A stretch of DNA of 49,617 nucleotides from a virus. The translations under genes were made by a program, and so were the position numbers. This document shows, one piece after another, positions 3,346 through 49,247 of this stretch. Every line of letters starts with the position of its first letter. Positions within the stretch are counted from its first letter, which is position 1. Under the pieces are notes generated by a model that was not told the origin of the DNA, did not search any database, and was given only the letters and a program-made list of their open reading frames with translations. The stretch covers positions 1 to 49,617 of the IMG/VR virus record IMGVR_UViG_3300009124_000029; one strand, written 5' to 3'.

Positions 3346-3754
3346 ACGCACATACCGTAGTGGCCTCGAAGAGGAGGCCGCTGCATTTCTCAAGTCTAGG
3401 CAGAAGAAAGTAGAGTATGAAAAGCTTAAGATCGAATGGGAAGACCTTAAGTATCGCACATACACACCTGACTTTGAGTTAGACAACGGTATCATAATAG
3501 AAACAAAGGGTATCTTCAGCGCAGCAGATCGCAGGAAGCATATTGAAATACAAAGACAGCATCCTACATTAGACATTCGATTCGTGTTTAGTAACGCTAA
3601 TGCAAAGCTTTACAAAGGTGCTAAATCTAGGTATTGCGATTGGTGTGAGCAAAAAGATTTCAAATGGGCGCACCGTGTGATACCAGAGGGTTGGTTACTT
3701 GAAAAAGGTAGTCGCATGAAAGAGCAACGATTAAAAGTGAAGCGGAGATTGTAA
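3311..3754 (+). CDS. T7 endonuclease I-like Holliday junction resolvase
   Basis: This matches T7 gp3 along its length: RSGLEEE at 16-22, YTPDF at 51-55, IETKG at 63-67, then DIRFVF, KLYKG and a C-terminal IPEGWL. Glu20, Asp54, Glu64 and Lys66 correspond to the T7 catalytic set Glu20/Asp55/Glu65/Lys67. The enzyme resolves four-way junctions before packaging and helps break down host DNA. A second ATG at 3326 is also possible, since the first is almost on top of its AGAGG. The C-terminus is basic. The stop overlaps the next start (GTAATG). Confidence 0.95.
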   Translation: MKQRVMKRHHLKRTYRSGLEEEAAAFLKSRQKKVEYEKLKIEWEDLKYRTYTPDFELDNGIIIETKGIFSAADRRKHIEIQRQHPTLDIRFVFSNANAKLYKGAKSRYCDWCEQKDFKWAHRVIPEGWLLEKGSRMKEQRLKVKRRL

Positions 3755-46913: not shown

Positions 46914-46935
46914 TGTCAATACCTTATATAAAAAA

Positions 46936-47092: not shown

Positions 47093-47543
47093 TAGTTAAA
47101 CTCTACCTATGTCCACTTTCTTTATTGCAACACTCTTATATAAAGTTTAACTATTTATTATTTATTACTTTATTTATGTTAATACACTAAAAGTTTAACT
47201 CTGCTGCTCCTGCTCCGCAGTTGTACCCATATTTTACCCCTAGTCAACCCCCTTTCTGCTATATATTACAGTGTTGTAACAATTTGTGATTAATATACTG
47301 GTATATATAGAGAGTTTACCCCAATAAGTTGCAGAAACTAAAAGTCACTTCTGTGTATTTGTACATATACGTGTACCGTCACACCCCCTATGGCCCTCGC
47401 AGGGTCCACATTCAAGTATTCATATATATGATTATGTATTTTTATCCCGGCTAAGGGTATTAAGCTACTGATTTTATTGAATAAATTAACTGATAGTTTA
47501 TCAGTAGATGTATATAAGGTGTTGATTTTGTTAGGTTTTTACT
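47093..47543. other. AT-rich non-coding spacer of the control region
   Basis: No plausible gene on either strand. It holds several AT-rich tracts, repeated AGTTTAACT/AGTTAAACT words (around 47094, 47145 and 47190) and a perfect hairpin ACTGATA-GTT-TATCAGT (47489-47505). It could include the replication origin, given its AT content and position between divergent blocks, but no DnaA boxes or iteron array was identified. Confidence 0.4.
47489..47505. promoter_or_regulatory. Perfect hairpin/operator-like inverted repeat
   Basis: ACTGATA, GTT, TATCAGT: 7-bp perfect arms with a 3-base spacer, about 39 bases left of the first TGTGATCACA site. It could be an operator or a small RNA stem-loop. Confidence 0.4.
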
Positions 47544-47630
47544 TTTGTGATCACAAATACAAAAGACGTGCATAATATACCCTACCCCTTGTGATCACAA
47601 ATCAGAGTACACCCCACAAATGTGATCACA
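47544..47630. promoter_or_regulatory. Three-site palindromic operator cluster (TGTGATCACA)
   Basis: Three perfect palindromes share the core TGTGATCACA: TTTGTGATCACAAA at 47544-47557 (14 bases), TTGTGATCACAA at 47589-47600 (12) and TGTGATCACA at 47621-47630 (10). Centres are 44 and 31 bases apart, close to whole helical turns. ATAATAT boxes (47572 and 47651) follow the first and third, so a dimeric protein bound here could control rightward early promoters. A one-mismatch copy (TGTGATCATA) is at about 48178. The core looks like CRP half-sites without the 6-base gap; the binding protein is unknown. Confidence 0.65.
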
Positions 47631-47692: not shown

Positions 47693-48217
47693 TGTTTCGT
47701 TTAAAATCAATAGCTTATAAGAAAGTTGGTCTAGGTGGGTTTACATCCCTATTTTGATTTGCTTTAAATAATCACATCGAAAGCGACAAGTTAGACAGCG
47801 AGTAGCCAAGAGCCTTGATCCAAAGTTTAACAGCGTCCTAAGACAAGTACGGTGGAAAGCCCTACATCACACACTAACGAAACGAAACACTTTAACAGAC
47901 GGAATGAGACAGCTTCGAGAGACATTGGCCTAGCAAGCCCTACACGGTGTAGAGAAAGGACCACGTTATTTGACATACTGCGTTCAATCGCACCCTGCGT
48001 TACGTCGATACGGTAACGGAAAGCTTGCTAGCTTATGGGCATATACATTCAGCGTATCCTTGACGGTGGCACGGATTGACACCCGCAAACTGTCTTGACC
48101 GATAAACACCAAACGTATGCACGCGGTCACTGCGTTTGGGTCTGCTCTTGGTAGAGTGGTTTAGCTCAAAGGGTGCCTGTGATCATAAACGTAGCAGGGT
48201 AACAACATAATCTTTTG
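47693..48217 (+). ncRNA. Putative structured non-coding / leader RNA upstream of the early genes
   Basis: No ORF is seen, and the GC content is visibly higher than in the spacer to its left. Complementary segments: 47693-47702 with 47880-47889 (10 bp); 47704-47710 with 47754-47760 (7 bp); CTAGCAAGC at 47930-47938 with 48023-48031 (9 bp). The last encloses hairpins 47940-47952 (CTACA-CGG-TGTAG), 47979-47992 (4 bp) and 47998-48018 (CGTTAC/GTAACG). A likely three-way junction lies at 48141-48198. AAGCCCTACA is repeated at 47857 and 47935. Any single 9-bp match could be chance; the nesting plus the following terminator is the evidence. Candidate classes are large ornate phage RNAs (GOLLD/ROOL-like) or an antitermination leader; I cannot assign one. 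Confidence 0.5.
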
Positions 48218-48257
48218 AAGGGCGACTGGAAATCGACAGGATAGGTGCGCCCTTTTT
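48218..48257 (+). terminator. Rho-independent terminator/attenuator before the early genes
   Basis: AAGGGCG (48218-48224) pairs with CGCCCTT (48048 + 200, i.e. 48248-48254), followed by a TTTTT run; the loop is 23 bases. It ends the putative RNA just 25 bases before the next ATG, leaving no room for a promoter. The early genes therefore seem to depend on read-through. The flanking AACATAA (48204) and TTATGTT (48263) could form a competing outer stem. Confidence 0.7.
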
Positions 48258-48281
48258 ATGGCTTATGTTTAGGAGGTAGAC

Positions 48282-48500
48282 ATGAAACTTTACATAGCAT
48301 CAGACGGGTGGCCGTTTTACTTACAAGACGATGGCACGTTAACAGACACACCCAACCCCAACCAAAGTGATTTAGGGTGGAATACACTAAAAGACTTGAC
48401 AGATTGGGACGAAGATACAAGACTAGCCACAGACGAAGAGTTTGAAGAGTGGCAAGACAGCCATGCAATGGCAGGGTTAGAGTATATAGTGAGAGGGTAA
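48282..48500 (+). CDS. Small acidic early protein, 72 aa
   Basis: A perfect AGGAGGT lies 4 bases before the ATG spacer, the strongest ribosome-binding site in the window. The protein is acidic with aromatic residues (DGWPFYLQDDGTLTDTPNPNQSDLGWN) and EEFEEWQDSHAMAG near the end. No family is recognised. As the first gene of the early block, a role in host takeover is plausible but unproven. Confidence 0.75.
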   Translation: MKLYIASDGWPFYLQDDGTLTDTPNPNQSDLGWNTLKDLTDWDEDTRLATDEEFEEWQDSHAMAGLEYIVRG

Positions 48501-48503
48501 GAC

Positions 48504-49247
48504 ATGACATATAAACTTATCGGCGTAGGTAATAACGCAAAGACAATCAAGGGTGACGGTAGCGAGTACCTAACCGCTATCCTTTACATGACACCTTACA
48601 AAGTGATGGTGGATGGCAAGCTATTCAATTCATGCAGCATGGCGGCAATCGCACAATGCATCGAAGCTTGTCTATACACAGCAGGACGTGGCGCAATGTC
48701 TAACGTTCAGACAGCACGACAGCGCAAAGCCGAATGGTTTTACCGTGACAAGGCTAGCTTCATGCAGCAACTAGTCGAGGATGTCCGTAAGTTTGAGGCA
48801 TACTGTGTCAAACGCGGTATCAAACCTGTGGTACGGCTAAACGGTACAACTGACATACGGTGGGAGCTTATCAAGATCAAACAAAAGACAGCCAACTTTG
48901 AAGCTGACCTAACGATCTTTCAGGTGTTCCCGAATGTCCAGTTCTACGACTACACCAAGATTGCCAACCGCAAGGTGTCAGGCATCCGCAATTATCACCT
49001 TACATGGTCATACTCAGGCGCAAACGCTGACTACGCAGCAAAGCTAGACACAGCACTAGCGCAAGGCATGTCTGTGGCTGTGGTATTCCGTGACGTATAC
49101 ACCAAGGATACATGGCGCGGTGTGCCTGTGATAGATGGTGACAAAGACGATCTACGTTTCACAGACCCACAGTCTCACATCGTCAAGCTATACGCCAAGG
49201 GTAAAGCTAAGAAAGACACAACAGGATTTGTTCAGGAGGTAGCATAA
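48504..49247 (+). CDS. GP88/DUF7227-like phage protein, 247 aa
   Basis: A conserved phage family of unknown function: CSMAAIAQCIEACLYTAGRGAMSNVQTARQRKAEWFYRD, then PVVRLNGTTDIRWE, FPNVQFYDYTKIANRK, YHLTWSYSG and VIDGDKDDLRFTDP. The cysteines at about 44, 53 and 57 lie where relatives have a Cys-rich cluster. It starts 3 bases after the previous stop. The pattern of short conserved polar blocks suggests an enzyme; the reaction is not known. Confidence 0.8.
   Translation: MTYKLIGVGNNAKTIKGDGSEYLTAILYMTPYKVMVDGKLFNSCSMAAIAQCIEACLYTAGRGAMSNVQTARQRKAEWFYRDKASFMQQLVEDVRKFEAYCVKRGIKPVVRLNGTTDIRWELIKIKQKTANFEADLTIFQVFPNVQFYDYTKIANRKVSGIRNYHLTWSYSGANADYAAKLDTALAQGMSVAVVFRDVYTKDTWRGVPVIDGDKDDLRFTDPQSHIVKLYAKGKAKKDTTGFVQEVA

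Follow-up and report, generated by a model that had tools for sequence, protein, structure and literature searches.

Genomic setting

The window analyzed here, that is, the whole stretch of 49,617 bases, is one complete uncultured virus record. Its plus strand encodes a family A DNA polymerase, endonuclease I, PhoH, ribonucleotide reductase, and a GP88-family protein, and its minus strand encodes the portal, terminase, and tail genes. The minus-strand genes end at 46919 and the plus-strand early genes start at 48282, and the leader described below sits within this non-coding gap of 1.36 kb. The first early ORF (48282..48500, plus strand) codes for 72 amino acids with no family match, and the second early gene (48504..49247, plus strand) codes for a 247-aa protein of the GP88 family (PF17338; phrog_1617).

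Other features are found in the same gap. A near-perfect minus-strand promoter at 47092-47063 (TTGACA-18-TATACT, 11/12) serves the leftward genes, and a non-coding stretch near these genes (47146-47251) has 76% conservation with the cultured Roseobacter phage CRP-207. Palindromic GTGATCAC repeats (TGTGATCACAAA) lie upstream of the early promoter, at 47546, 47590, and 47621. Their count was reached in 0 of 100 shuffles, they are also tripled in several relatives (L001, L003, L004, L013, L016, L024, and L026), and they are likely an operator or replication iterons. The motif AAAATCANNNNCTTA has three exact copies, two on the minus strand (47461-47475 and 47515-47529) and one on the plus strand (47703-47717), the latter falling inside the conserved block 5′ of the early promoter.

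Early promoter

The original prediction was a structured RNA some 560 nt long, untranslated and covering 47693-48257. Its extent has to be revised, with a start near 47775 instead of 47693, and 47693-47774 comprises a promoter and a conserved upstream DNA motif. The predicted early promoter (47740..47769, plus strand) is of the sigma70 type, with a −35 box TTTACA at 47740-47745, an 18-nt spacer, and a −10 box TTAAAT at 47764-47769. We infer a transcription start at 47775-47777, the first bases of the element that we call module A. As a plain consensus scan of the window does not list this promoter, the case for it rests on comparison: among 47 non-redundant relatives, TTGCAA-like and −10-like hexamers about 18 nt apart are found at a near-fixed distance to CATCG and module A, and the phages ParMal1 and ParKuw1 have a comparable arrangement. 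The conserved AT-rich motif TTTCGTTTAAAATCAATAGCTTATAAGAAAG(TT) further upstream (47695..47727, plus strand), which is part of the profile, is matched by blastn in L013, L025, L026, L021, and others and is recognizable in ParMal1 and ParKuw1. It is possibly an UP element or an activator site.

Downstream of the promoter, the absence of an ORF was correctly predicted, as there are only mechanical ORFs of at most 54 aa and the middle of the region is replaced by unrelated sequence in a close relative, L024. The higher GC content that had been pointed out is real relative to the sequence just upstream (0.39-0.51 versus 0.31-0.37, with the rise at about 47800), but the downstream coding DNA has an equal GC content.

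Module A

Relatives had to be compared because single-sequence folding could not sustain a claim of structure. The folding energy of the RNA at 47775-48257 is no better than that of shuffled sequence (z, +0.82), nor is that of module A in the window (47775-47867; z, −0.28), and only the 3′ hairpin (48198-48275) is more stable than shuffles (z, −2.27). Searching with the 247-aa gene gave 80 loci, to which pattern scans added more. Most pattern-scan loci were recruited because they contain one exact 16-mer, and the constancy of CATCGAAAGCGACAAG among them partly reflects this selection; it is also strongly conserved in loci found through the protein (L003, L006, L016, L020, L021, and L025) and in L235-L238, recruited by a pattern on the 3′ half. 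In other relatives, the conserved blocks correspond to 47695-47727, 47775-47790, 47831-47865, and 47962-47977.

Module A (47775..47867, plus strand) is a 92-nt RNA with two stem-loops. In the first, P1 (47777-47787/47835-47843) encloses P2 (47790-47796/47825-47831), and the second is formed by P3 (47847-47852/47860-47865), which has a C.C mismatch. The covariance model built from 13 module A sequences, R1, gives the window 80.5 bits, and its seed set has a covariation score of 0.303, compared with 0.095 when shuffled and at most 0.046 when slid. R1 matches 63 loci, one match per locus, with E values up to 5.8e-7. In the alignment of these loci, 15 of 20 pairs have double-sided changes, the covariation score is 0.397 (0.100 shuffled; at most 0.065 with slid partners), and 89.9% of the cells are paired, versus 70.2% after shuffling. 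As this alignment was fitted to the structure and the sequences are related, what counts is the size of the effect and not the number of shuffles. No fitted alignment enters the result for the second pair of P2, which is paired in 60 of 61 sequences (shuffles, mean of 30 and maximum of 41) and occurs as T-A, C-G, A-T, G-C, and G-T. Compensatory changes in P1 are also found in loci that were not chosen by the 16-mer: G5 is changed to C and its partner to G in L003, and G9 to A and its partner from C to U in L006/L025. Judged by sequence comparison, the structure of module A is maintained by compensatory changes. RNAalifold had failed on a raw MAFFT alignment of the divergent loci, where the stem arms were misaligned, a problem that the covariance model solved.

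The core of the original prediction, an untranslated structured RNA, survives because covariation was found among relatives. The covarying structure is real but lies in helices other than those first listed, for which support beyond chance was not found.

Module A is upstream of the first rightward genes in every locus checked, and the gene start, where assignable, is mostly about 320 to 740 nt 3′ of it on the same strand. A T-run just 3′ of the module is rare among relatives. At the gathering score, Rfam detects nothing in the window or 17 relatives except three tRNAs in L012, and permissive Rfam searches returned chance-level matches only. No Rfam family covers module A, and the genome region in which it lies carries no annotation; non-coding RNA goes unmentioned in a paper on HMO-2011-type phages. 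Scanning 84,980 genomes of bacteria and archaea (one per species) with a sequence pattern gave 0 matches, so there is no sign of prophages at that stringency.

Cultured phages

Searches by blastn with the module A of relatives against isolate phages found nothing convincing, but the window's own sequence weakly matched Paracoccus phage ParMal1 (OQ376858, Autographiviridae) in a gap without annotation. R1 scores this phage at 53.8 bits and locates module A behind TTGCAA-18-ATAACT and the shared upstream motif. The phage RNA polymerase gene of ParMal1 starts about 15.5 kb downstream of module A on the same strand, as do all the genes in between, so the early operon transcribed by the host polymerase is probably very long. 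In ParKuw1 the same promoter is kept and, as R1 gives this phage 12 bits, we rely on reading its sequence, which suggests a module A that is rearranged and carries an insertion. In the stretches of HMO-2011 and CRP-207 searched with R1 there was no module A and nothing beyond noise, and CRP-235 gave one weak match (19.4 bits). A D-like sequence and a gene-start element (both described below) were read by eye in CRP-207. The window's conserved folded RNA, previously unlisted, is also present in numerous uncultured relatives and in a single cultured phage, ParMal1 of Paracoccus.

Exchangeable domains in the rest of the leader

Module A is followed by an A-rich linker (47868..47926, plus strand), which in many relatives carries a second promoter-like box, TTGACT-17/18-xAxxxT, that is absent in the window. 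Next comes a local hairpin, GGC-CUAGCAA-GCC, and then CUACA-CGG-UGUAG (47927..47952, plus strand). It is not favored by energy alone; L007 has an identical loop with the stem changed to AGC/GCU, and the hairpin is present in L024 and roseophage CRP-207. It replaces the 9-bp long-range pair proposed before, whose halves, CTAGCAAGC (47930-47938) and GCTTGCTAG (48023-48031), do exist in the window but are not conserved as a helix. They are not found together in relatives; L024 and L007 possess a single half each, and L024 keeps the 5′ half within the local hairpin and lacks the 3′ half. A kissing contact between modules, UAGCAA/UUGCUA, was rejected as well, as its halves do not co-occur and L024 and L007 hold just one. 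The 10-base direct repeat AAGCCCTACA (47857 and 47935) is present as described but diverged in L024.

Domain D, of type D1, starts with ACGUUAUUUGACAUA and occupies 47963..48199 (plus strand). It contains the hairpin AAGC-UUGCUA-GCUU (48021-48034), hairpin c, CCAAACG...CGUUUGG (48109-48139), and a terminal hairpin, CCUG...CAGG (48176-48198), all on the plus strand. Homologs of D1 are found in L192, L104, L125, L162, and L164 and also in a second phage group, which is GC-rich (L208, L211, and L213-L215) and in which it precedes a rightward gene without module A. In ten sequences, all seven stem pairs of hairpin c change on both sides while the loop is kept, and the covariation score is 0.676, versus 0.270 shuffled; as these sequences were chosen by eye for the loop, the covariation is supporting and not blind. 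The terminal stem is CCUG/CAGG in the window and L228, CGUG/CACG in L192, and CAUG/CAUG in L208. Most matches to the D pattern CACGTTATTTGACATA did not resemble D and were discarded. L024 is 93.5% identical to the window up to 47977 and 95% identical from 48193, with unrelated sequence between, and on this alignment the middle of the leader is exchanged between near-identical phages. Leaders 3′ of module A, as read from these comparisons, carry interchangeable structured domains.

The leader closes with a gene-start element (48204..48269, plus strand), in which an outer helix, AACAUAA/UUAUGUU, surrounds a terminator-like hairpin, GGGCG...CGCCC-UUUUU. In relatives, too, nested hairpins immediately precede the first gene. 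The predicted rho-independent terminator exists as a terminator-like hairpin plus U-run that ends at about 48257 (−12.8 kcal/mol), but a U-run after the last hairpin, and with it an intrinsic terminator (GC hairpin plus U-run) at the equivalent place, is found only in the window and L024.

Other elements were seen in the leaders of relatives. TTGAC is four times overrepresented on the plus strand in the leaders of 40 relatives (84 versus 20), whereas the minus strand shows no excess (9 versus 10). The plus-strand copies lie in the second promoter box, in domain D, and in the gene-start element. A three-way-junction-like element, ...UAGGCCAACCUA...CUUGAC..., is located just before the first gene in L021, L026, L008, L029, and L140 and at about 3600-3650 in CRP-207 (L081); its arms covary (UUUAGG/CCUAAA, AUAGG/CCUAU, and ACAGG/CCUGU), and it is possibly another RNA motif. 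A hairpin element, CTTGACAGGTAGGC...GCCTACTCTC, is found in L088 between the first two early genes, about 645 to 700 from module A, while other phages have it ahead of the first gene, which gives the impression that it moves with gene cassettes. Finally, the leaders of L017 and L012, 5′ of the 247-aa gene, have in the equivalent place behind a promoter another 5′ module, CCATCGAACGGCAC...GGCGATGG, which is probably a further type of leader RNA.

Possible function

RNA elements that modify RNA polymerase without a protein are, to our knowledge, known in very few cases, the put RNA of HK022 being the best studied. Our tentative preference is that module A is an element of this kind, acting in cis as nascent RNA on the host RNA polymerase. 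The host polymerase would start at about 47775 and make module A immediately, and the module would fold on the emerging polymerase, may act on it during promoter exit, and would remain bound in cis. With module A bound, the polymerase would resist pausing and termination while passing through the structured leader and then the lengthy early operon, and domain D and the gene-start hairpin would be separate, exchangeable RNA cargo. We infer the transcription of the module, the polymerase as its partner, and the antitermination or anti-pausing effect. They fit an element that is located at the predicted 5′ end, keeps a fixed position, is continuous with the early operon, and tolerates any downstream sequence, and they fit ParMal1, where the operon is very long and extends to the phage polymerase; the sequence exchange beyond module A in L024 suits an element that acts on the polymerase regardless of what follows. 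Several findings count against antitermination. The second promoter-like box of many relatives is positioned after module A, so transcripts from it would lack the module; there is one copy per locus, compared with two puts in HK022; R1 has no match in the HK022 regions searched; and module A alone is, in the window, no more stable than shuffled sequence. Plus-strand intrinsic terminators are not in excess in the early operon of ParMal1, which counts somewhat against it too. A broader proposal, possible but doubtful, is that module A represents a second family of RNA-only antiterminators acting on host RNA polymerase, one that evolved independently and is shared by at least two phage lineages, and that behind it lies a slot where large structured RNAs such as D would be swapped as cassettes, in the manner of gene modules.

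The extensive covarying structure in A and D and the lack of a conserved ORF would also suit a trans-acting non-coding RNA, made early, in which module A and the downstream domain are released by processing and bind a host or phage target. D is found without A in the second phage group and in L007, which implies that it stands alone. We consider this rather unlikely, given that no conserved terminator follows A or D, that the leader is upstream of the early genes on their strand, and that near-identical phages can have unrelated sequence in the place of D. The leader could instead act in cis on the stability, processing, or translation of the mRNA, with A shielding the 5′ end from decay and the gene-start hairpin serving as a processing site or translational control. 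Module A is indeed paired from about +3, and nested hairpins precede the first gene and, in L088, also lie between later early genes, as processing hairpins do in the early mRNA of T7; such a role, which we judge unlikely, leaves the near-invariant unpaired bases of A unexplained, and these hold also in the loci recovered with the pattern on the 3′ half only.

A DNA element, such as an origin or a protein-binding cruciform, would be in keeping with an intergenic gap with palindromic GTGATCAC repeats nearby, and the GU and AC cell counts in module A, taken as a strand indicator (24 versus 35), do not fix the strand. The near-fixed distance to the promoter-like sequence, the fixed orientation relative to the genes, and the bulged helices with internal loops, typical of RNA, make this very improbable. 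The thermodynamic z-scores near zero are what would be expected if there were no functional structure and the conservation were due to chance or held at the sequence level only, but the covariation exceeds every shuffle and slid control and already contradicts this reading, to which we give hardly any credence.

Comparison with known systems

The leader resembles GOLLD, ROOL, and OLE in being a long structured phage or bacterial RNA with no ORF and with domain-wise conservation. It differs from them in being part of a leader without a conserved terminator, with exchangeable domains and parts of 90 to 240 nt. The free RNA of the GOLLD/ROOL type that had been suggested is not borne out: Rfam covariance models for GOLLD, ROOL, HEARO, OLE, T-box, and riboswitches have no match in the window and 17 relatives, the RNA lies directly 5′ of the early genes on their strand, and the window has no tRNA genes, which are often near GOLLD and ROOL.

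The early mRNA of T7 has intergenic processing hairpins that are RNase III sites. The gene-start element is likewise a hairpin with a lower and an upper stem just before genes; it has in relatives a conserved CUUGAC, which is also −35-like, and its processing is putative.

The put RNA of HK022 suppresses termination and pausing in cis without protein and requires the beta-prime zinc-binding domain of the polymerase. It is about 70 nt long with two stem-loops, putL being just downstream of PL, and modifies the host polymerase in cis (PMC9378689). A leader of the put type was among the original suggestions and is now the leading hypothesis, although without a profile match to put. R1, which models module A only, gives at best 9.7 bits over 22-40 kb of HK022, a record in which put is unannotated; with this similarity test failed, we do not assign module A to the put family, but it possibly works like put. 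Module A differs in being 92 nt long, in belonging to marine phages of probably Rhodobacterales hosts, and in having the second promoter-like box on its 3′ side in many relatives. Both putL/putR and module A have two stem-loops, those of module A (P1+P2 and P3) being backed by covariation in a presumed transcript. Both begin within a few bases of the early promoter +1, which is predicted for module A. Both also belong to the leader of an early operon that is long, and neither has an evident need for a phage protein. With a covarying element just past an early promoter and a cultured carrier, ParMal1, how common such RNAs are becomes directly testable.
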